Assembly: GCF_001570525.1 (NCBI RefSeq)
Contig: NZ_BBXC01000024.1
Span: forward strand, 27,784-91,783
Direction of reading: 5' to 3'
DNA from: Herbidospora sakaeratensis
Lineage (GTDB): Bacteria > Actinomycetota > Actinomycetes > Streptosporangiales > Streptosporangiaceae
DNA: 64,000 nucleotides
Below are positions 6,003 to 14,046 of the stretch, one piece after another (position 1 is the first letter of the stretch; every line of letters begins with the position of its first letter). Position numbers and translations under genes: made by a program. The notes beneath the pieces were generated by a model. The model ran no database searches, was not told the DNA's origin, and saw only the letters and a list, made by a program, of their open reading frames with translations.

Positions 6003-8288
6003 ATGCGGATCAAGAAGCGCGACGGGTCGCTCGAACCGGTCGACGTGACGAGGATCGTCCGCGCGGTCGAGGATTGTTCCGGCGGGCTCGCCGACGTCGA
6101 GCCGCTGCGGGTCGCCACCCGGACGATCAGCGGCCTGTACGACGGCGCCACCACCGCCGAACTCGACCGCCTGTCGATCCAGACCGCCGCCGAGATGATC
6201 GGCGAGGAGCCGCAGTACTCCCGGCTGGCCGCGCGGCTGCTGGCGGCCTACATCCGCAAGGAGGTGGAGGCCGACACGTTCAGCCGGTCGATCAAGGAGG
6301 GCCACGCCCTCGGCCTGATCGGCGACACGACCGCCGCCTTCGTGGCCGACCACGCCGACCTGCTCGACGCCACGATCGACGTCGGCAACGACCGGCGGTT
6401 CGAGTACTTCGGCCTGCGCACCGTGTACGACCGCTACCTGCTCCGCCACCCCCAGACCCGGCTCCCGGTCGAGACCCCGCAGTTCTGGCTGCTCCGGGTG
6501 GCCTGCGGCCTGGCCCAGACGCCCGGCGAGGCGGTCGAGCTCTACCGCCTGATGTCGTCGCTGGCCTACCTGCCCAGCTCGCCGACGCTGTTCAACTCCG
6601 GCACCGGCCACACCCAGATGTCCTCGTGCTACCTGGTCGACTCCCCGCGCGACGAGCTCGGCTCGATCTACGAGCGGTACGCCCAGGTCGCCCACCTGTC
6701 GAAGTTCGCCGGCGGCATCGGCATCTCCTGGTCGCGGGTCAGGTCGAGGGGCGCCCTGATCAAGGGCACCAACGGCCACTCCAACGGGATCGTGCCGTTC
6801 CTGCGCACCCTCGACGCCTCCGTGGCCGCCGTGAACCAGGGCGGCCGCCGCAAGGGCGCCGCGTGCGTCTACCTGGAGCCCTGGCACCCCGACGTCGAGG
6901 AGTTCCTGGAGCTCCGCGACAACACCGGCGAGGACGCCCGCCGCACCCACAACCTCAACCTGGCCAACTGGATCCCCGACGAGTTCATGCGCCGCGTCGA
7001 GGCCGACCAGATGTGGTCGCTGTTCGACCCGAACGAGCTGCCCGAGCTGCCCGACCTGTGGGGCGACGCCTTCGACGAGGTCTACCGCAAGGCGGAGCAG
7101 GACGGCCGCCAGGCGCGCCAGATCCGCGCCCGCGACCTCTACGCCAAGATGATGCGCACCCTGGCCCAGACCGGCAACGGCTGGATGACGTTCAAGGACA
7201 CCTCGAACCGCACCTGCAACCAGGCCGCCGAGCCGGGCAACGTGGTGCACCTGTCGAACCTGTGCACCGAGATCATCGAGGTGTCGAACGACGACGAGAC
7301 CGCGGTCTGCAACCTGGGTTCCATCAACCTGGCCGCCCACCTGGCCGACGGCGGCGTCGACTGGGCCAGGCTGCGCCGGACCGTCAAGACGGCCGTGGTC
7401 TTCCTCGACCGCGTGATCGACATCAACTACTACCCGACCAAGCAGGCCGCGGCGAGCAACCCGCGCTGGCGTCCGGTCGGGCTCGGGCTGATGGGCCTCC
7501 AGGACGTCTTCTTCGCGCTCCGGCTGCCCTTCGACTCCCCCGAGGCCAAGGAGCTGTCGACCCGGATCTCCGAGGAGATCTACCTGGCCGCCCTCGACAC
7601 CTCGGCCGACCTCGCGGCGGAGCACGGGCCGCATCCGGCGTACGGCGAGACCTGGGCGGCCCGTGGGAAGCTCCAGCCCGACCTGCACGGCCTCAGCCCC
7701 GAGTGGACCGCCCTCCGCGCGAAGATCGCCGAGCACGGGCTGCGCAATTCCCTGCTGATCGCCATCGCCCCCACGGCGACCATCGCCTCGATCGCGGGCT
7801 GCTACGAGTGCGTCGAACCGCAGGTGTCGAACCTCTTCAAGCGCGAGACGCTGAGCGGGGAGTTCCTCCAGATCAACAACGCGCTGGTCGCCGAGCTCAA
7901 GGCCCGGGGCCTGTGGACCGAGCCGGTCCGGACCGCCATCCGCCAGGCCGAGGGCTCGGTGCAGGGCATCGCCGAGTTGCCTGGTGAGGTCAGGAGCCTG
8001 TTCCGGACCGCGTGGGAGCTGCCGCAGCGGGCCCTCATCGACATGGGGGCGGCGCGGGCGCCGTACATCGACCAGAGCCAGTCGCTCAACCTGTTCATGG
8101 CCAGCCCGACCATCGACAAGTTGTCGTCGATGTACCTGTACGCCTGGAAGTCGGGCCTGAAGACCACCTACTACCTGCGCTCGCGCCCCGCGACGCGCAT
8201 CCAGCAGGCCACCGTGCCCGTCGCGGCCGTCGACGCCGCGATCGCCTGCTCCCTGGAGAACCCCGAGTCCTGTGAGGCGTGCCAGTGA
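6003..8288 (+). CDS. nrdA: Class Ia ribonucleoside-diphosphate reductase, alpha subunit
   Basis: The 761-residue large subunit reduces ribonucleoside diphosphates to deoxy forms. An ATP-cone is at the N terminus (about 1-90), followed by the ten-stranded barrel. Visible catalytic residues: a redox Cys in TQMSSCYLVDS (about 210), the Asn-x-Cys-x-Glu triad in NLCTEI (about 419-423), the partner Cys in CNLGSIN, the radical-transfer tyrosine pair in TYYLRS (about 723) and a C-terminal CEAC thiol shuttle. The ATG has a strong SD (GAGGAGAGGACGAGG). Transcription and translation are likely controlled by NrdR and by the B12 riboswitch just upstream. The gene overlaps nrdB at TGATG, so the subunits are co-translated. 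Confidence 0.95.
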   Translation: MRIKKRDGSLEPVDVTRIVRAVEDCSGGLADVEPLRVATRTISGLYDGATTAELDRLSIQTAAEMIGEEPQYSRLAARLLAAYIRKEVEADTFSRSIKEGHALGLIGDTTAAFVADHADLLDATIDVGNDRRFEYFGLRTVYDRYLLRHPQTRLPVETPQFWLLRVACGLAQTPGEAVELYRLMSSLAYLPSSPTLFNSGTGHTQMSSCYLVDSPRDELGSIYERYAQVAHLSKFAGGIGISWSRVRSRGALIKGTNGHSNGIVPFLRTLDASVAAVNQGGRRKGAACVYLEPWHPDVEEFLELRDNTGEDARRTHNLNLANWIPDEFMRRVEADQMWSLFDPNELPELPDLWGDAFDEVYRKAEQDGRQARQIRARDLYAKMMRTLAQTGNGWMTFKDTSNRTCNQAAEPGNVVHLSNLCTEIIEVSNDDETAVCNLGSINLAAHLADGGVDWARLRRTVKTAVVFLDRVIDINYYPTKQAAASNPRWRPVGLGLMGLQDVFFALRLPFDSPEAKELSTRISEEIYLAALDTSADLAAEHGPHPAYGETWAARGKLQPDLHGLSPEWTALRAKIAEHGLRNSLLIAIAPTATIASIAGCYECVEPQVSNLFKRETLSGEFLQINNALVAELKARGLWTEPVRTAIRQAEGSVQGIAELPGEVRSLFRTAWELPQRALIDMGAARAPYIDQSQSLNLFMASPTIDKLSSMYLYAWKSGLKTTYYLRSRPATRIQQATVPVAAVDAAIACSLENPESCEACQ

Positions 8289-9283
8289 TGCTGCTCGACC
8301 CCGGCATGAGCCTGACCCTGCGCCCGATGCGCTACCCGGCGTTCTTCGAGCGTTATCGCGACGCCATCAAGAACACCTGGACCGTCGAGGAGGTCGACCT
8401 CCACTCCGACCTCGCCGACCTGGGCAGGTTGTCGCCGGCCGAACGCCACCTGGTGTCGCGGCTGGTGGCCTTCTTCGCCACGGGTGACACGATCGTCGCC
8501 AACAACCTGGTGCTCAACCTCTACCAGCACGTCAACGCCCCAGAAGCGCGCCTCTACCTGTCGCGGCAGCTCTTCGAGGAAGCCGTGCACGTGCAGTTCT
8601 ACCTGAACCTGCTCGACACCTACGTGCCCGACGAGCAGGAGCGCTTCGAGGCGTTCGCGGCCGTCGAGAACATCCCGTCGATCAGCCGCAAGGCCGAGTT
8701 CTGCTTCCGCTGGATCGACTCCCTCGGCGACCTGAAGAGCCTGGAGACCAAGGCCGACCGCCGGGCCTTCCTGCTCAACCTCATCTGCTTCGCCGCGTGC
8801 ATCGAGGGCCTGTTCTTCTACGGCGCCTTCGCGTACGTCTACTTCCTGCGCTCCCGCGGCCTGCTCAACGGCCTGGCCTCGGGCACGAACTGGGTGTTCC
8901 GCGACGAGTCGATGCACATGGCGTTCGCGTTCGACGTCGTCGAGGTCGCCCGCGCCGAGGAGCCCGACCTGTTCGACGACGACCTGGTCGCCCAGATCAG
9001 GACCATGCTCGCCGAGGCGGTCGACTGCGAGGCCCAGTTCGCCGAGGACCTGCTCAACCAGGGCGTGCCGGGCATGTCGATCGCCGACATGCGCCTCTAC
9101 CTGGAGCACGTCGCCGACCGCCGGCTGGCCCAGCTCGGCATCGCGCCCCTGTACGGCTCGAAGAACCCCTTCGCCTTCATGGAACTCCAGGACGTGCAGG
9201 AGCTCTCGAACTTCTTCGAGCGCAAGGTCTCGGCCTACCAGGTCGGCGTCACCGGCTCGGTCAGCTTCGACGCCGACTTCTAG
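8288..9283 (+). CDS. nrdB: Class Ia ribonucleoside-diphosphate reductase, beta subunit
   Basis: The 331-residue small subunit makes the tyrosyl radical used by NrdA. Iron ligands and radical site are recognisable: Asp67 in ATGDTI, Glu98 and His101 with Tyr105 in EEAVHVQFY (the E-x-x-H-x-x-x-Y pattern), Glu in IEGLFFYGAF, and DESMHMAF with the last Glu and His. The presence of the tyrosine argues for a canonical class Ia enzyme rather than a Phe-type class Ic. The ATG at 8288 overlaps the nrdA stop by one base; GTG codons at 8279 and 8285 are alternative starts. The end overlaps the convergent gene by 4 bp. No nrdS-like regulator follows, unlike the nrdABS operon of Streptomyces. Confidence 0.94.
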   Translation: MLLDPGMSLTLRPMRYPAFFERYRDAIKNTWTVEEVDLHSDLADLGRLSPAERHLVSRLVAFFATGDTIVANNLVLNLYQHVNAPEARLYLSRQLFEEAVHVQFYLNLLDTYVPDEQERFEAFAAVENIPSISRKAEFCFRWIDSLGDLKSLETKADRRAFLLNLICFAACIEGLFFYGAFAYVYFLRSRGLLNGLASGTNWVFRDESMHMAFAFDVVEVARAEEPDLFDDDLVAQIRTMLAEAVDCEAQFAEDLLNQGVPGMSIADMRLYLEHVADRRLAQLGIAPLYGSKNPFAFMELQDVQELSNFFERKVSAYQVGVTGSVSFDADF

Positions 9284-10380
9284 CGCACGCTCAGCCGCGC
9301 CCCGGTGACGGTCACGCCCTTCGAGGAGACCGTCACCGGTGACAGGTCCACCGACGTCACCTCGGGGACGGTCGCGACCAGGCGGCCGACCTGCGTGAGG
9401 AGTTCGCCCAGCGCGGCCGTGTCGGCCCGGGGGTGGTCGCGGTAGCCGTACAGGAGCGGGGAACAGCGCAGGTCGGCGATCATCTCGGCGGCGGCCTCCG
9501 GCCCGAGCGGCGGCACCCGGCAGGCCCGGTCGCCGGTCAGCTCGGCGACGACGCCGCCGTAGCCGACCACCACGAGCGGCCCGGTCACCGGGTCGTTGAC
9601 GCCCCGCACGGTCATCTCCACCCCCGGCCACGAAGGGCCGAGCGTGATGCCGAAGTGGGCCAGCAGCGCCGGAGTGTCGTGGACGAGGCCGCGCGCCGCC
9701 GGGTCGTCGGCCGCGAAGAGCCATTCGGGCGCGGTCCGCCGCCACTCCACGTAGGCCGCCACCCGGGCCAGCGCCCCGACCGCCTGCTCGGGGTAGGCGT
9801 AACACGGCACCCGGCCGCCGACCAGCCCGTCCTGGCCGAGCACGCACGCCAGCGTGGTCACCTCGCGCTCGGCCGCCAGCACGGTCTTCCACGCCGTGCC
9901 GAGGTCGGCCCCGAACGGCGCGACGACCAGGCACGCGTCGGCGTCGGCCTCGGCCCCGCGCGGGAGCAGCGGCGTGGCCGCGTCGGCGTGCAGCAGGTCG
10001 CCGCTGACGGCCACCCGGCGGCCCGCGGGCAGGGGCTGGTAGGCGAGCAGCCGGACGGTGTCGACCAGGTCGCGCAGCCCTTCGACCAGGATCACCCCGG
10101 TGGCGCGGGCGAGCGCCGCCAGGCCCTCGGTGATCCCGGCCGGGGTGAAGACCACGATCGGCTTGCGGCGGCTGACCCGCGCCGCGACCTGCGCGAACTC
10201 CCGGGGGTCCCCCAGCGAGTCGACGACGATGACCGTCGTCAGCGGGTCGTCGCCCCAATGGGTCAACATCTCCGCGTCGTCGGCCCGCACGTAGGAACAC
10301 ACCGGCAGCACGTCGACGAGCGCCGCCAGCACCGCCTCCGACCGCGCCAGCACGGCCACCTCACCAGGAATGGAAACCAC
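9280..10380 (-). CDS. Reduced ADP-forming acyl-CoA ligase-like protein
   Basis: A 366-residue protein resembling only parts of the roughly 700-900-residue ADP-forming acetate-CoA ligase family. Residues 1-150 look like the flavodoxin-like ligase domain, with the RLLAYQPLPAGRRVAV joint typical of the family. The last 110 residues look like the C-terminal ATP-grasp half (DPVTGPLVVVGYGGVVAEL, PLLYGYR, then the VDLSPV end strand). The N-terminal CoA-binding Rossmann domain and the front half of the ATP-grasp are missing, so catalysis as a CoA ligase is doubtful. The GTG start has no clear SD. It is divergent from devS, with a DevR-type box in the 95-bp gap, so it may belong to that regulon. It may be a regulatory derivative or a decaying gene. 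Confidence 0.65.
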   Translation of the reverse strand: MVSIPGEVAVLARSEAVLAALVDVLPVCSYVRADDAEMLTHWGDDPLTTVIVVDSLGDPREFAQVAARVSRRKPIVVFTPAGITEGLAALARATGVILVEGLRDLVDTVRLLAYQPLPAGRRVAVSGDLLHADAATPLLPRGAEADADACLVVAPFGADLGTAWKTVLAAEREVTTLACVLGQDGLVGGRVPCYAYPEQAVGALARVAAYVEWRRTAPEWLFAADDPAARGLVHDTPALLAHFGITLGPSWPGVEMTVRGVNDPVTGPLVVVGYGGVVAELTGDRACRVPPLGPEAAAEMIADLRCSPLLYGYRDHPRADTAALGELLTQVGRLVATVPEVTSVDLSPVTVSSKGVTVTGARLSVR

Positions 10381-10437
10381 GCGATCAGGCTGCCCGCGTC
10401 GAGATCTCCCGGCTAGGGCCGGACGGCTCGCCCCGAA

Positions 10438-10451
10438 AGGACCAAAGTCCC
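10438..10451 (+). promoter_or_regulatory. DevR/DosR-type box upstream of devS
   Basis: AGGACCAAAGTCCC matches the core of the DosR palindrome (GGGACTWWAGTCCC) with the full right arm GTCCC and one mismatch in the left arm. It lies in the gap shared by devS and the minus-strand ligase-like gene. It shares GGACCWAAG with two further boxes at 12451 and 13144. Confidence 0.65.
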
Positions 10452-10475
10452 GCCGGTTAGGAGCAGAATGTCGGC

Positions 10476-12017
10476 ATGGCTCACCCCCTCGTGCCCAGCA
10501 TGCGCCTGGATGAGCTGCTCGCCGAGCTGCAGACCCGGCTCGAGGCGGTGCTGGCCACCCGCGACCGCGTCCACTCGCTGCTCGAAGCCGTCGTGCTCAT
10601 CGGCAGCGACCTCCAGCTGGAGACGGTGCTCGGCCGGATCGTGGAGACCGCCGCCCGGCTGGTCGACGCCACCTACGGCGCGCTCGGCGTGGTGGGCGAG
10701 GAGTCCACCCTCCTGGAGTTCATCCCGGTCGGGCTGAGCGAGGAGGAGATCGCCCGCATCGAGCACTGGCCCCACGGCCTCGGGCTGCTGGGCCTGCTCA
10801 TCAAGGAGCCGAAGCCGCTGCGGCTGGCGCGGATCTCCGACCACCCCGACTCCTACGGCTTCCCGCCCGGCCACCCGCCGATGGGCAGCTTCCTCGGCGT
10901 GCCGCTGCGGGTGCGCGACGAGGTCTTCGGCAACCTCTATCTGACCGAGAAGCGCGGCGGCGCCGAGTTCGACGAGGAGGACCAGGCGGTCGTCACCGCG
11001 CTGGCCACGGCCGCCGGCGTCGCGATCGAGAACGCCCGCCTCTACGAGGAGACCCGCCGCCGCGAGATGTGGTTGCAGGCGTCGTCCGAGGTGACCACGA
11101 GCCTGTTGTCGGGCGCCGGCCCTCACGAGGTGCTCACCCACGTCGTCGGCCGGGCCCGCGAGATGGCCGACGCCGACGTCGCGGTGTTGCGCTTCGGCAA
11201 CGGCACCGAGATCGTCGAGGGCGACCTCGCCGACCTCGTCGACCAGACGTCGATACCGCTCGGCCGGGTCGGTTCGGTGCGCGCGGTGCTGCTGCTGGGC
11301 AAACGTCCGGGGCGGTTGCCGTTCACGCCGTCGCTGGTGCGCATGCTGAGCGCCTTCGCCGACCAGGCGTCGATCGCGCTGGAACTGGCCGAGGCCCGCG
11401 AGGACGCCGAGCGCCTGGGCCTGCTCGAAGACCGCCACCGCATCGCCAAGGACCTGCACGACGTCGTCATCCAGCGGCTGTTCGCCACCGCCATGACGCT
11501 GATGAGCACGGTCCGGCTGGTCGAACACCCCGAGGCGGCGACCCGCGTCAGGCACACGATCGACGAGCTCGACGAGACGATCCGGCAGATCCGCTCCACC
11601 ATCTTCGCGCTGCAGTCGCCGGCCGTGATGGGCGAGCAGAGCCTCCGGTCCCACATCGTCGAACTGGTCGAGGGCGCCCGCGGCCACCTGGGCTTCATGC
11701 CCGGCCTGCGGATGGACGGCTGGCTCGACAACGCCGTGAGCGACGCGGTCGCCGAGCAGCTGCTCGCCGTCCTGCGCGAGGCCCTCTCCAATCTGGTACG
11801 CCACGCGAAGGCCACCCGCGCCGACGTGGTGGCCGAGGTGACCGACGGCGTGCTGACGTTGATCGTCCAGGACGACGGCGTCGGCGTCGCCGCCGAGGGC
11901 CGCCGCAGCGGCCTGCGCAACCTGGAGGAGCGGGCGGTCCTGCTGGGCGGGTCGTTCTCGATCGGCCCGGCCGGCGCCTGGAACACCCGCCTCCGCTGGA
12001 GCGTGCCCGTCAATTAA
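10476..12017 (+). CDS. devS: DevS/DosT-type GAF sensor histidine kinase
   Basis: A 513-residue soluble kinase: GAF-A (about 40-190), GAF-B (about 210-305), HisKA_3 dimerisation helix with the phosphorylated His near residue 328 in KDLHDVVIQRLF, and an HATPase domain (about 410-513) with NLVRHAKA and DDGVGV. GAF-A carries the family segment HPDSYGFPPGHPPM; its second His (residue 133) corresponds to the proximal haem ligand His149 of M. tuberculosis DosS. It should therefore sense O2, NO, CO or redox state through haem. The ATG at 10476 follows TAGGAG at 12 nt; ATG 10500 is a possible alternative. The 3' end overlaps the convergent PNPOx gene by 8 bp. Its partner is devR, 450 bp further on. 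Confidence 0.92.
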   Translation: MAHPLVPSMRLDELLAELQTRLEAVLATRDRVHSLLEAVVLIGSDLQLETVLGRIVETAARLVDATYGALGVVGEESTLLEFIPVGLSEEEIARIEHWPHGLGLLGLLIKEPKPLRLARISDHPDSYGFPPGHPPMGSFLGVPLRVRDEVFGNLYLTEKRGGAEFDEEDQAVVTALATAAGVAIENARLYEETRRREMWLQASSEVTTSLLSGAGPHEVLTHVVGRAREMADADVAVLRFGNGTEIVEGDLADLVDQTSIPLGRVGSVRAVLLLGKRPGRLPFTPSLVRMLSAFADQASIALELAEAREDAERLGLLEDRHRIAKDLHDVVIQRLFATAMTLMSTVRLVEHPEAATRVRHTIDELDETIRQIRSTIFALQSPAVMGEQSLRSHIVELVEGARGHLGFMPGLRMDGWLDNAVSDAVAEQLLAVLREALSNLVRHAKATRADVVAEVTDGVLTLIVQDDGVGVAAEGRRSGLRNLEERAVLLGGSFSIGPAGAWNTRLRWSVPVN

Positions 12018-12414
12018 TACGGCGCCCCGACACCTCTTCGGTCGAGAGCGTCACGAAGTGGTCGAAGGCCGACGGCGCCCAGGGCATCAACGGCAGCGCC
12101 GACAACCGGGCGACCTCCTCGGGCGCGGTCACCCCGCGGGCGTGCCCGAGCACGGTCACCGACCAGCCCGAACCGGTGTCCTTGTCGACGTCGTCGATCT
12201 CGAAGGCCACCACGGCGTCACGGGTCGCGGCGGCCAGGCGGGAGCCGATGGCGGTCCGGATGACGACGGTCTCCCCGTCGAGGACGTAGTTGACCGGCTG
12301 GACGGCGGGCAGCGCCCGATAGGTGAAGACCAGCCGCCCGATAGGCGTGGTGGCCAACAGGCGCAGGCACTCCTCCCGCGACAACACCGTGAGTCCGGCC
12401 GAGTCGATTCTCAT
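12010..12414 (-). CDS. Pyridoxamine 5'-phosphate oxidase-fold flavin/F420-binding protein
   Basis: A 134-residue single-domain split-barrel protein. It starts with the usual LSREECLRLLATTPIGRLVF helix-strand unit of small PNPOx-like proteins, followed by QPVNYVLDG and the EIDDVDKDTGSGWSV stretch. Such proteins bind FMN or F420 and are common members of DosR regulons in mycobacteria. A DevR box sits with its centre 43.5 bp upstream of the ATG. This is the standard activating position if transcription starts at the start codon, and no SD is visible. A role in low-oxygen redox balance is inference from the family and the box. Confidence 0.85.
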   Translation of the reverse strand: MRIDSAGLTVLSREECLRLLATTPIGRLVFTYRALPAVQPVNYVLDGETVVIRTAIGSRLAAATRDAVVAFEIDDVDKDTGSGWSVTVLGHARGVTAPEEVARLSALPLMPWAPSAFDHFVTLSTEEVSGRRIN

Positions 12415-12450
12415 GACGTGAGTCTGCCGGTAACGGCATATAGGGGATTA

Positions 12451-12464
12451 GGGACCTAAGTCAC
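12451..12464 (-). promoter_or_regulatory. DevR/DosR-type box of the PNPOx gene
   Basis: GGGACCTAAGTCAC matches the DosR core palindrome at 12 of 14 positions. It lies two bases after the devR stop codon and its centre is 43.5 bp before the PNPOx ATG at 12414, the distance expected for DosR-activated promoters on a leaderless mRNA. Confidence 0.75.
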
Positions 12465-12465
12465 A

Positions 12466-13107
12466 TCAATCGCGCCGATCTGCCCTCATCCGGGCCGCGA
12501 GAGCCGCCGCCTGCGTCCGGCGCTGCATGTTCAGCTTGGCCAGCAGGTTGGAGACGTAGTTCTTGACGGTCTTCTCCGCCAGATACATGCGCTCGCCGAT
12601 CTGCCGGTTCGTCAGCCCCTCGCCGATCAGCTCCAGGATCGTGCGCTCCTGCTCCGACAACATCCCCAGCGGGTCGGTGCGGCCGGCCTGGTCGCGCAGC
12701 CGGTGGAGCATCGACGCGGTGGTCTGCGGGTCGAGCAGCGACTGCCCGGCGGCGACCGTGCGGACCGCGCCCACCAGGTCGGAGCCGTGGATCTGCTTCA
12801 GCACGTAACCGGCCGCCCCGGCCATCACGGCCTCGAAGAGGGCGTCGTCGTCGGCGTAGGAGGTGAGCATCAGGCAGGCCAGGCCGGGCACCTGGCTGCG
12901 CACCTCGCGGCAGACCTTGACGCCGTCGCCGTCGGGCAGGCGTACGTCGAGGATCGCCACGTCGGGCCGCAGGGCGGGGATGCGCGCGGCCGCCGCGGCG
13001 GCGGTGCCCGCCTCGCCGACGACCTCGATGTCCTCCTCCGACTCCAGCAGCGCTGCCACTCCACGCCGCACGACCTCGTGGTCGTCGAGCAGGAAGACAC
13101 GAATCAT
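12466..13107 (-). CDS. devR: DevR/DosR-type NarL/LuxR response regulator
   Basis: A 213-residue response regulator that keeps the residue numbering of mycobacterial DosR: acidic pocket Asp8/Asp9, phospho-acceptor Asp54 in AILDVRLPDG, Thr82 and Lys104 in YVLKQI. The LuxR-type helix-turn-helix is at about 150-200 (LTNRQIGERMYLAEKTVKNYVSNLL). It is the expected partner of the DevS kinase. TAGATT (complement of 13115-13120) is spaced 7 nt from the ATG, so the mRNA is probably leaderless. A DevR box at 13144-13157 has its centre 43.5 bp upstream of that start, so autoregulation is likely. Together with devS, the PNPOx and the SnoaL-like gene it forms a compact stress module. Confidence 0.93.
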   Translation of the reverse strand: MIRVFLLDDHEVVRRGVAALLESEEDIEVVGEAGTAAAAAARIPALRPDVAILDVRLPDGDGVKVCREVRSQVPGLACLMLTSYADDDALFEAVMAGAAGYVLKQIHGSDLVGAVRTVAAGQSLLDPQTTASMLHRLRDQAGRTDPLGMLSEQERTILELIGEGLTNRQIGERMYLAEKTVKNYVSNLLAKLNMQRRTQAAALAARMRADRRD

Positions 13108-13143
13108 GGGACGAAATCTAGATACCGGAGGTCTCCGGCGGAA

Positions 13144-13157
13144 GGGACCTAAGCCCT
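13144..13157. promoter_or_regulatory. DevR/DosR-type box between devR and the SnoaL-like gene
   Basis: GGGACCTAAGCCCT shares the first ten bases with the box at 12451. It lies in the divergent gap; its centre is 43.5 bp from the devR start on the minus strand and 46.5 bp from the ATG at 13197 on the plus strand, so it could serve both directions. Confidence 0.7.
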
Positions 13158-13196
13158 CCTTGACGTCAAGCTCACTTGATGAAGCACGCTGAGGCC

Positions 13197-13571
13197 ATGG
13201 ACATCGAGGAGATCAGAGCCGTCGTCGCCGCCGTCGAGCACGCCCAGCGGAACGAGCTGGTCGAGGAGTTCGTCGCCCTCTTCCGCCACGACGCGATCTG
13301 GACCACCGGCCACGGCCGCCGCCTGTACGGCCGCGACGAGATCGCCGCCTTCACCCGGAAGGTGCTGCCGGGCGCGATGACCGACCTGTCGGTCACCTTC
13401 GAGATCGAGCACGTGCTGTTCATCCGCCCCGACGTCGCGGCGGTGAAGGTGGTCCAGCGCTACACCCCGTCGGACGGCAACCCGGGCTCGCCCATGTGGG
13501 TGATGGCCAAGGAGGACGGCCGCTGGTTGCTGACCGCCTGCCAGAACACCGAGGTGCTCCCTACGTGTTGA
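13197..13571 (+). CDS. SnoaL-like / SgcJ-EcaC family protein
   Basis: A 124-residue protein with an NTF2-like fold: an N-terminal helix, FVALFRHDAIWTT, a GRDEIAAFTRKVLPG helix and a C-terminal strand pair ending in GRWLLTACQNTEV. This is the pattern of SgcJ/EcaC-type proteins, whose substrates are mostly unknown. The ATG at 13197 is chosen because it places the DevR box at an activating distance and matches the usual family start; ATG 13179 and TTG 13176 are upstream alternatives. No SD is visible. Control by DevR is inferred. Its last 11 bp overlap the convergent tspO-like gene. Confidence 0.78.
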   Translation: MDIEEIRAVVAAVEHAQRNELVEEFVALFRHDAIWTTGHGRRLYGRDEIAAFTRKVLPGAMTDLSVTFEIEHVLFIRPDVAAVKVVQRYTPSDGNPGSPMWVMAKEDGRWLLTACQNTEVLPTC

Positions 13572-14046
13572 GCCGGCCGAACTCGTAGCTGAGGGCGATG
13601 AGGTAGGTCGTCCAGGCCATGAACGGCAGCAGTAGCAGGGCCGCCATCCTGCTGTCGCGCCAGAAGACGAAGAAGCCGACGACCTGCAGCACCAGGAAGA
13701 TCGCCGCGTCGACCGCGGCCAGGTAGTGGAGGCGCAACCCGAGCGAGAGCGGCGCCCACAGGCCGTAGGCGATCAGCTGGGCCACCCACCACCACAGGGC
13801 GAAGGGCCGGGCCTCCTCGTACCAGAGCAGGCCGGCGATCAGGGCGAGGGTGAGTGAGAGGAAGGCGAACATCGGTCCGTGCAGCCAGATCGGCAGCTCG
13901 AAGGGGGGACGCTGGAACTCCGCCAACCCCGGCCGCGCGTTCTGCGCGATCACCCGGTTGTCGATCGCCGTCATCAGCACGGCGAGCAGCGCGAGCACCA
14001 GCCCCGGCCAGCGCCGGAGCCAGTGGGTACGCGGGGGTTCACTCAT
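13561..14046 (-). CDS. tspO: TspO/MBR family membrane protein
   Basis: A 161-residue protein with five predicted membrane segments. The family pattern is visible: RPPFELPIWLHGPMFAFL resembles the PPWxPPxWxFGPVW loop, ALWWWVAQLIAYGLWAPL matches helix 3, and the second half (SRMAALLLLPFMAW followed by LSYEFGRLN) matches the SRxAxxLLxPYxxW...LNxxIxRLN end. TspO proteins bind tetrapyrroles and act in oxygen- and light-dependent stress responses. It lies directly against the DevR-associated SnoaL-like gene, and TACGGT is 5 nt before the ATG. The sequence is diverged, so haem or porphyrin binding needs testing. Confidence 0.72.
   Translation of the reverse strand: MSEPPRTHWLRRWPGLVLALLAVLMTAIDNRVIAQNARPGLAEFQRPPFELPIWLHGPMFAFLSLTLALIAGLLWYEEARPFALWWWVAQLIAYGLWAPLSLGLRLHYLAAVDAAIFLVLQVVGFFVFWRDSRMAALLLLPFMAWTTYLIALSYEFGRLNT

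Follow-up and report, generated by a model that had tools for sequence, protein, structure and literature searches.

A predicted DevRS-type gas-sensing module of Herbidospora with DevR boxes at a fixed distance from the devR and PNPOx start codons

A DevRS-type gene pair with DevR boxes

A 64,000-nucleotide (nt) stretch of Herbidospora sakaeratensis DNA (contig NZ_BBXC01000024.1; hereafter the window), part of an 8.6-Mb genome, was analyzed for a predicted two-component module. It encodes a sensor kinase and a response regulator that resemble DevS and DevR of Mycobacterium tuberculosis, with a gene for a PNPOx-like protein between them and three 14-bp sites of the DevR box type. The features are as follows.

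10438-10451, no strand assigned: DevR box 1, AGGACCAAAGTCCC; distances, 31.5 nt to the devS ATG and 64.5 nt to the GTG of a divergent gene remnant
10476..12017, plus strand: devS-like sensor kinase gene, 513 amino acids (aa); heme-type GAF-A, shortened GAF-B, HisKA_3, and HATPase
12010..12414, minus strand: PNPOx-like gene (Pyridox_ox_2), 134 aa; convergent with devS, with an 8-base overlap
12421..12426, minus strand: predicted PNPOx -10 element (CAGACT), 6 nt before the ATG
12451-12464, no strand assigned: DevR box 2, GGGACCTAAGTCAC; center 12457.5
12466..13107, minus strand: devR, response regulator with receiver and LuxR-type domains, 213 aa; matches structure 3c3w
13115..13120, minus strand: predicted devR -10 element (TAGATT), 7 nt before the ATG
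13144-13157, no strand assigned: DevR box 3, GGGACCTAAGCCCT; center 13150.5; 46.5 nt from the ATG of a SnoaL-like gene

DevR aligned with M. tuberculosis DevR (3c3w) over residues 1-211 (E = 6.2e-78). It combines a receiver with a LuxR-type helix-turn-helix and shares with 3c3w the phospho-accepting Asp54 and a KTVKNY motif at 179, which we take to be in the DNA-contacting helix. GAF-A of DevS matched the GAF-A structures of DevS/DosT (2y8h, 2vzw, 4ynr, 2y79, and 2w3d; E values from 1.5e-49 to 1.9e-48). His133 and Tyr155 of DevS align with the heme ligand His149 and the distal Tyr171 of DosS (PMC4082495), suggesting that GAF-A binds heme, and HisKA_3 and HATPase domains are present, with a predicted phospho-acceptor His328 in a DLHD motif. 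DevS did not show the tandem of full-length GAF-A and GAF-B domains: Pfam reported a single GAF stretch, the GAF structure 2vjw was matched only at positions 89-149 of 149, and GAF-B spanned 112 residues versus 157-159 in eight compared kinases (DevS2 of seven Herbidospora species, described below, and a Planotetraspora mira kinase), about 45 residues fewer. We therefore refer to it as a DevS-like kinase with a reduced GAF-B. By these similarities, the module is one of the known DevRS/DosRS/OsdKR kind.

Box 2 precedes the PNPOx ATG at 12414, and box 3 the devR ATG at 13107, in each case by 43.5 nt as measured from the box center. A previous sequence-only reading of this DNA had proposed a DevRS pair with three DevR boxes sharing GGACCWAAG, two of them at this distance; the site sequences, coordinates, and distances are exact, and protein matches and cross-species conservation support the pair and its boxes. 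It had missed the distances of 31.5 nt from box 1 to devS and 46.5 nt from box 3 to the SnoaL-like gene. GGACCWAAG occurs only three times in the 64 kb, each time at a box (shuffle mean, 0.41; 3 of 100 shuffles reached three). For the consensus GGGACCWAAGTCCC, two window sites had at most one mismatch, with 0.03 expected and none of 100 shuffles reaching two, and three sites had at most two mismatches, with 0.89 expected and 8 of 100 shuffles reaching three. The stronger evidence for the boxes is comparative and comes from other species rather than from counts in the window or the genome.

Conservation of the box-to-start distance

The locus was compared with those of Herbidospora daliensis (L039), H. 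galbida (L040), H. yilanensis (L041), H. solisilvae (L042), H. cretacea (L043), and H. mongoliensis (L056), which together with the window make seven Herbidospora loci. DevS of the window is 91-98% identical to that of the first five. In H. mongoliensis (L056:8001-9097), devS is broken: the open reading frame (ORF) from the conserved start has 29 aa, and the tblastn pieces leave out residues 131-216 and 333-388; the devR box of this species is also below threshold.

Upstream of the targets, the palindrome GGGAC-N4-GTCCC is conserved among these relatives. For PNPOx, a box at 43.5 nt and CAGACT-N6-ATG are found in all seven loci. For devR, TAGATT or TACATT lies 6-7 nt before the ATG in all seven, and a box lies at 42.5-43.5 nt in five; in the other two, L041 and L056, it falls below threshold. 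The 1-nt shifts among devR upstream regions fall between the -10 element and the ATG, so that the spacing from box to -10 element is kept. No Shine-Dalgarno sequence was seen by eye before devR or PNPOx, and a -10 element 6-7 nt before the start codon is the pattern of a leaderless promoter.

A wider set was assembled from 129 tblastn pieces, 71 of which start at residue 1, with an ATG or GTG codon, and have 60 nt upstream; the 58 pieces dropped comprised 55 not starting at residue 1 and three lacking ATG or GTG. The 71 pieces gave 55 distinct devR/PNPOx upstream sequences. A box was called at 8 or more of the 10 half-site letters, and a -10-like hexamer as [TCG]ANNNT at 6-7 nt ahead of the start codon. 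A box was present at 40-48 nt in 42 of the 55 regions, and a box at 42.5-45.5 nt together with a hexamer in 41; at random positions, a 4-nt slot holds a box with a probability of 0.0038. We also examined 30 further devR loci that were unexamined when the idea of a fixed distance arose, although their genomes were already part of a scan of 61 genomes of the family. Ten begin with ATGATTCG; all ten have the hexamer and eight have a box in the 42.5-45.5 range (seven of nine independent loci, since L165 repeats L053).

The conserved distance and hexamer support leaderless devR and PNPOx mRNAs with DevR placed over the -35 position. In M. tuberculosis, promoters carry TANNNT centered 7-12 bp upstream of transcription starts (PMC3898074), a pattern consistent with transcription starting at the AUG here. 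The sequence-only reading had made the activating position conditional on leaderless mRNAs, and promoters of that type are indeed predicted here: TAGATT-N7-ATG and CAGACT-N6-ATG are kept in other genera.

Box counts and the proposed mechanism

Several observations weigh against this interpretation. At up to three mismatches, the window holds 10 sites versus 10.6 in shuffles, and given the shuffle counts at two to three mismatches, box 3 at devR is weak taken alone. A genome scan for the box, which the sequence-only reading had suggested as a check, gave no excess over the reversed-pattern control in the own genome (that carrying the window) at 1-2 mismatches (25 versus 54 in one count and 38 versus 54 in another); the 27 box loci examined there included many inside ORFs, with counts at background. 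The reversed control still gave 14 matches versus 41 for the box pattern in the seven Herbidospora genomes, and 2 versus 3 in the own genome. In the upstream set, dropping pieces that do not start at residue 1 favors proteins with the same N terminus, 14 of the 55 regions come from the single genus Herbidospora, and 14 lack a box at 42.5-45.5 nt, including devR of two Herbidospora species. Of the 30 further devR loci, the 20 not starting with ATGATTCG do not fit, and any boxes found at them precede the first aligned codon by 54.5-163.5 nt. A regulon-wide spacing of 43.5 nt, expected for exact family boxes, was rejected: a long ORF starts at 42.5-45.5 nt in the sense of the box at only 6 of 30 loci, a count that holds repeats (perfect palindromes on both strands and boxes present in two loci). 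The spacing rule is thus claimed for devR and PNPOx, plus a few further cases.

Could the three sites be chance look-alikes in a high-GC genome? The shuffle-level window count at three mismatches and the lack of excess in the own genome are what chance would give. The conservation of position, spacing, and -10 element across species and genera speaks against it, as do the 82 exact occurrences of GGGACCTTSGTCCC versus 11 for the reversed control in the 61 genomes (none in the own genome), and we regard chance resemblance as highly improbable. Exact GGGACYWWNGTCCC in the seven Herbidospora genomes lies within 10 kb of a devR at 20 of 26 places.

We favor, with a probability of about 0.8, a gas-sensing DevRS-type module in which DevR activates devR and PNPOx from leaderless promoters. 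DevS would sense O2, and probably also nitric oxide (NO) and carbon monoxide, through heme in GAF-A and phosphorylate DevR. Once phosphorylated, DevR would bind the 14-bp palindrome, which is centered at -43.5 and overlaps the -35 position. It would activate its own gene and that for PNPOx, with transcription of both beginning at the AUG. With leaderless mRNAs, the distance from box to AUG would in effect be the distance from box to RNA polymerase. A hypoxia or NO signal is suggested by the heme residues of DevS.

The distance was also seen at a few genes other than devR and PNPOx. A DevR box lies 42.5 nt from the ATG of a phosphoketolase (XFP) gene at L126:5-1465 and 43.5 nt from that of another at L044:10363-12684, where the box is shared with devR. 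At L121, a box lies at 42.5 nt, and the product starts with nearly the same residues. For the own-genome phosphoketolase gene on C10, no box with at least 7 of 10 letters was found within 150 nt of the start codon examined.

Box 1 and the acyl-CoA synthetase remnant

Box 1 lies between devS and a gene on the opposite strand, with these further features.

9280..10380, minus strand: remnant of an acyl-coenzyme A (CoA) synthetase (NDP-forming)/ATP-grasp gene, 366 aa; partial Pfam domains
10387..10392, minus strand: possible -10 element of the remnant (CAGCCT), 6 nt before the GTG at 10380
10464..10469, plus strand: likely devS -10 element (CAGAAT), 6 nt before the ATG at 10476; same hexamer in all seven Herbidospora species

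The divergent gene, called ligase-like in the sequence-only reading, is by its domain content an internally deleted, decaying remnant. It covers positions 108-221 of the 221 of ATP-grasp_5 (about half) and 38-95 of the 138 of Succ_CoA_lig (under half). An intact relative in Planotetraspora mira, adjoining a PNPOx-like gene and devR, has 885 aa with GNAT, CoA_binding_2, full Succ_CoA_lig, Ligase_CoA_2, and near-full ATP-grasp_5 domains. From the same GTG, the ORF has 379 aa in L041 and is shortened in four of the six other Herbidospora loci (L039, 223 aa; L040, 105 aa; L043, 157 aa; L056, 281 aa). The ratio of nonsynonymous to synonymous substitution (dN/dS) is 0.19-0.45 for the remnant (versus five species) and 0.11-0.15 for devR (versus six); the remnant values are inflated by reading-frame breaks. 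Its candidate -10 hexamer CAGCCT also occurs in L039, L041, and L043, with CAGCAT in L056 and none in L040.

Box 1 is probably a present or former site of this remnant and not one for devS activation. Its distance from devS is not the usual activating one. It lies 64.5 nt from the remnant GTG in five of the six species that have it and 15.5 nt in L040, after a deletion. The main rival for box 1 is that phosphorylated DevR represses devS from -31.5 by covering the core promoter between -35 and -10, in which case feedback would be positive on devR and negative on devS. For this speaks the constancy of both the 31.5-nt distance and the CAGAAT hexamer in all six species with the box, as well as its persistence in the four species where the remnant ORF is shortened. 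Against it, devS is intact at 513 aa in L042, where neither box 1 nor the remnant was found at the locus (no tblastn match for the latter), and none of 13 devS loci in other genera has a box at 31.5 nt; three of them have boxes (8-10 of 10 letters) at 51.5, 106.5, and 142.5 nt. The central letters (7-8) of 42 devR/PNPOx boxes, read in the gene sense, are TT in 25, TA in 12, AA in 1, and other in 4, and box 1 reads TT in the direction of the remnant. In five species (L040 left out), 12 of 14 positions of box 1 are invariant versus 54 of 81 in the flanks; by side, the flank counts are 35 of 57 toward the remnant and 19 of 24 toward devS. The box is thus little better kept than the devS-side flank, and conservation alone cannot tell which gene it serves. 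Taken together, we consider repression of devS unlikely.

Neighboring genes

Two genes lie beyond box 3.

13197..13571, plus strand: SnoaL/DUF4440-like gene (TIGR02246), 124 aa if started at this ATG; membership in the unit doubtful
13561..14046, minus strand: gene for a TspO/MBR-like protein; no upstream DevR box seen

The sequence-only reading had joined these, PNPOx, and the ligase-like gene to devS and devR in a self-contained hypoxia/NO response unit. In such a unit, box 1 would serve devS and/or the ligase-like gene and box 3 both devR and SnoaL. TspO is indeed present at the locus in all seven Herbidospora species, and three species have CACGCT 6-7 nt ahead of a SnoaL ATG that is 46.5-47.5 nt away from box 3. 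Sharing of a box is possible: in Acrocarpospora (L044 and L054), devR and a divergent ORF (the phosphoketolase gene in L044) have a box in common, 44.5 nt away from the former and 43.5 nt from the latter. However, no box was visible in the 90 nt inspected upstream of tspO, and none with 9 or 10 of 10 half-site letters lies in its vicinity; TspO is probably not part of the regulon. SnoaL has tblastn matches at the locus in four of the seven species (the window, L040, L042, and L056) and none in L039, L041, and L043, where only the loci were searched, and box 3 of L056 is below threshold. With the ligase-like gene a remnant, box 1 at an atypical -31.5 from devS, and a second devR/usp module elsewhere in the genome, this part of the earlier proposal is not supported, and we consider a self-contained unit quite unlikely.

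A palindrome, CTTGACGTCAAG, lies at 13159-13170 between box 3 and SnoaL and is present in the other three SnoaL-bearing species, once with one change. Within it, a TTGACG hexamer precedes CACGCT by 19 nt, and SnoaL may thus have its own control. On the other side, genes for the large and small chains of ribonucleotide reductase (6003-9283) adjoin the remnant and are convergent with it. The large chain is encoded at the locus in all seven Herbidospora species, and no DevR box was seen in the 75 nt preceding its gene.

A second DevR module

Mismatch-free GGGACYWWNGTCCC occurs in the own genome only at two boxes, 28 bp apart, between a second devR gene (devR2) and a divergent Usp gene on C7. The devR2 product is 75% identical to DevR of the window. 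As in the window module, the proximal box lies at 43.5 nt, here followed by TACGTT-N7-ATG, and the kinase gene, devS2, is convergent with its neighbor, devR2. This module differs in its paired boxes, its Usp gene, and its kinase: DevS2 (L106:10364-11986, C7) has a full-length GAF-B, Asp at the heme-ligand column, and Cys at the distal-Tyr column. At these columns, DevS2 of G005 has Arg and Cys and that of G003 His and Cys; the loop before the distal-Tyr column is deleted in all three. DevS2 of G001, G002, G004, and G006 keeps His and Tyr, with a shortened loop in G004. A search with L106:12163-12765, also on C7, gave no hit.

These losses allow the speculative view, to which we give little credence, that two kinases have divided a double-GAF sensor between them, DevS with a heme GAF-A and reduced GAF-B and DevS2 with a GAF-B but no ligand His or distal Tyr. 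Both would feed two DevRs reading the same leaderless box spacing, with gas and a second, non-gas input on separate or heterodimeric kinases.

Elsewhere in the own genome, GGGACCAGGGTCCC (L091, C8:819911-819924) lies 43.5 nt from an ATG preceded by CACAAT. The ORF has at least 488 codons and looks, by eye, like a membrane-type protein; it is a possible further DevR target.

Discussion

The M. tuberculosis DevR regulon includes PNPOx-type targets. The Herbidospora module shares with M. tuberculosis DevRS/DosRST the similarity of DevR over residues 1-211, the kinase with a heme-type GAF-A, the type of palindrome, and a start-proximal site overlapping the -35 position (PMC3029386). It differs in that devR and PNPOx have a single box each, strong boxes are few in the genome, the box is fixed relative to the AUG, and GAF-B is shortened. 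OsdR of Streptomyces coelicolor binds M. tuberculosis DevR targets, and its predicted site upstream of the PNPOx gene SCO0214 is a 16-mer at -50 (PMC5069765); if -50 is its first base, the center would lie at about -42.5. The OsdKR system differs in its 43 predicted sites affecting 85 genes, its consensus AGGGCCGATCGGCCCT, and the nitrate reductase and universal stress protein (USP) genes around osdR (PMC5069765), none of which were among the eight window genes scanned.

Among the matches listed for open-licence DevR/DosR literature on Streptosporangiaceae or leaderless expression, no title or abstract opening pointed to the AUG-fixed spacing or to a Herbidospora module. The spacing is possibly new, as are the complementary kinase losses, for which no literature search was made.

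With a fixed distance from box to AUG, direct and leaderless DevR targets of rare actinomycetes could be tested for by sequence alone. The fixed distance also predicts that, under low oxygen, the regulator and one of its targets are translated from leaderless mRNAs. The two kinases, with their complementary losses, would offer a natural test of the contributions of GAF-A and GAF-B.

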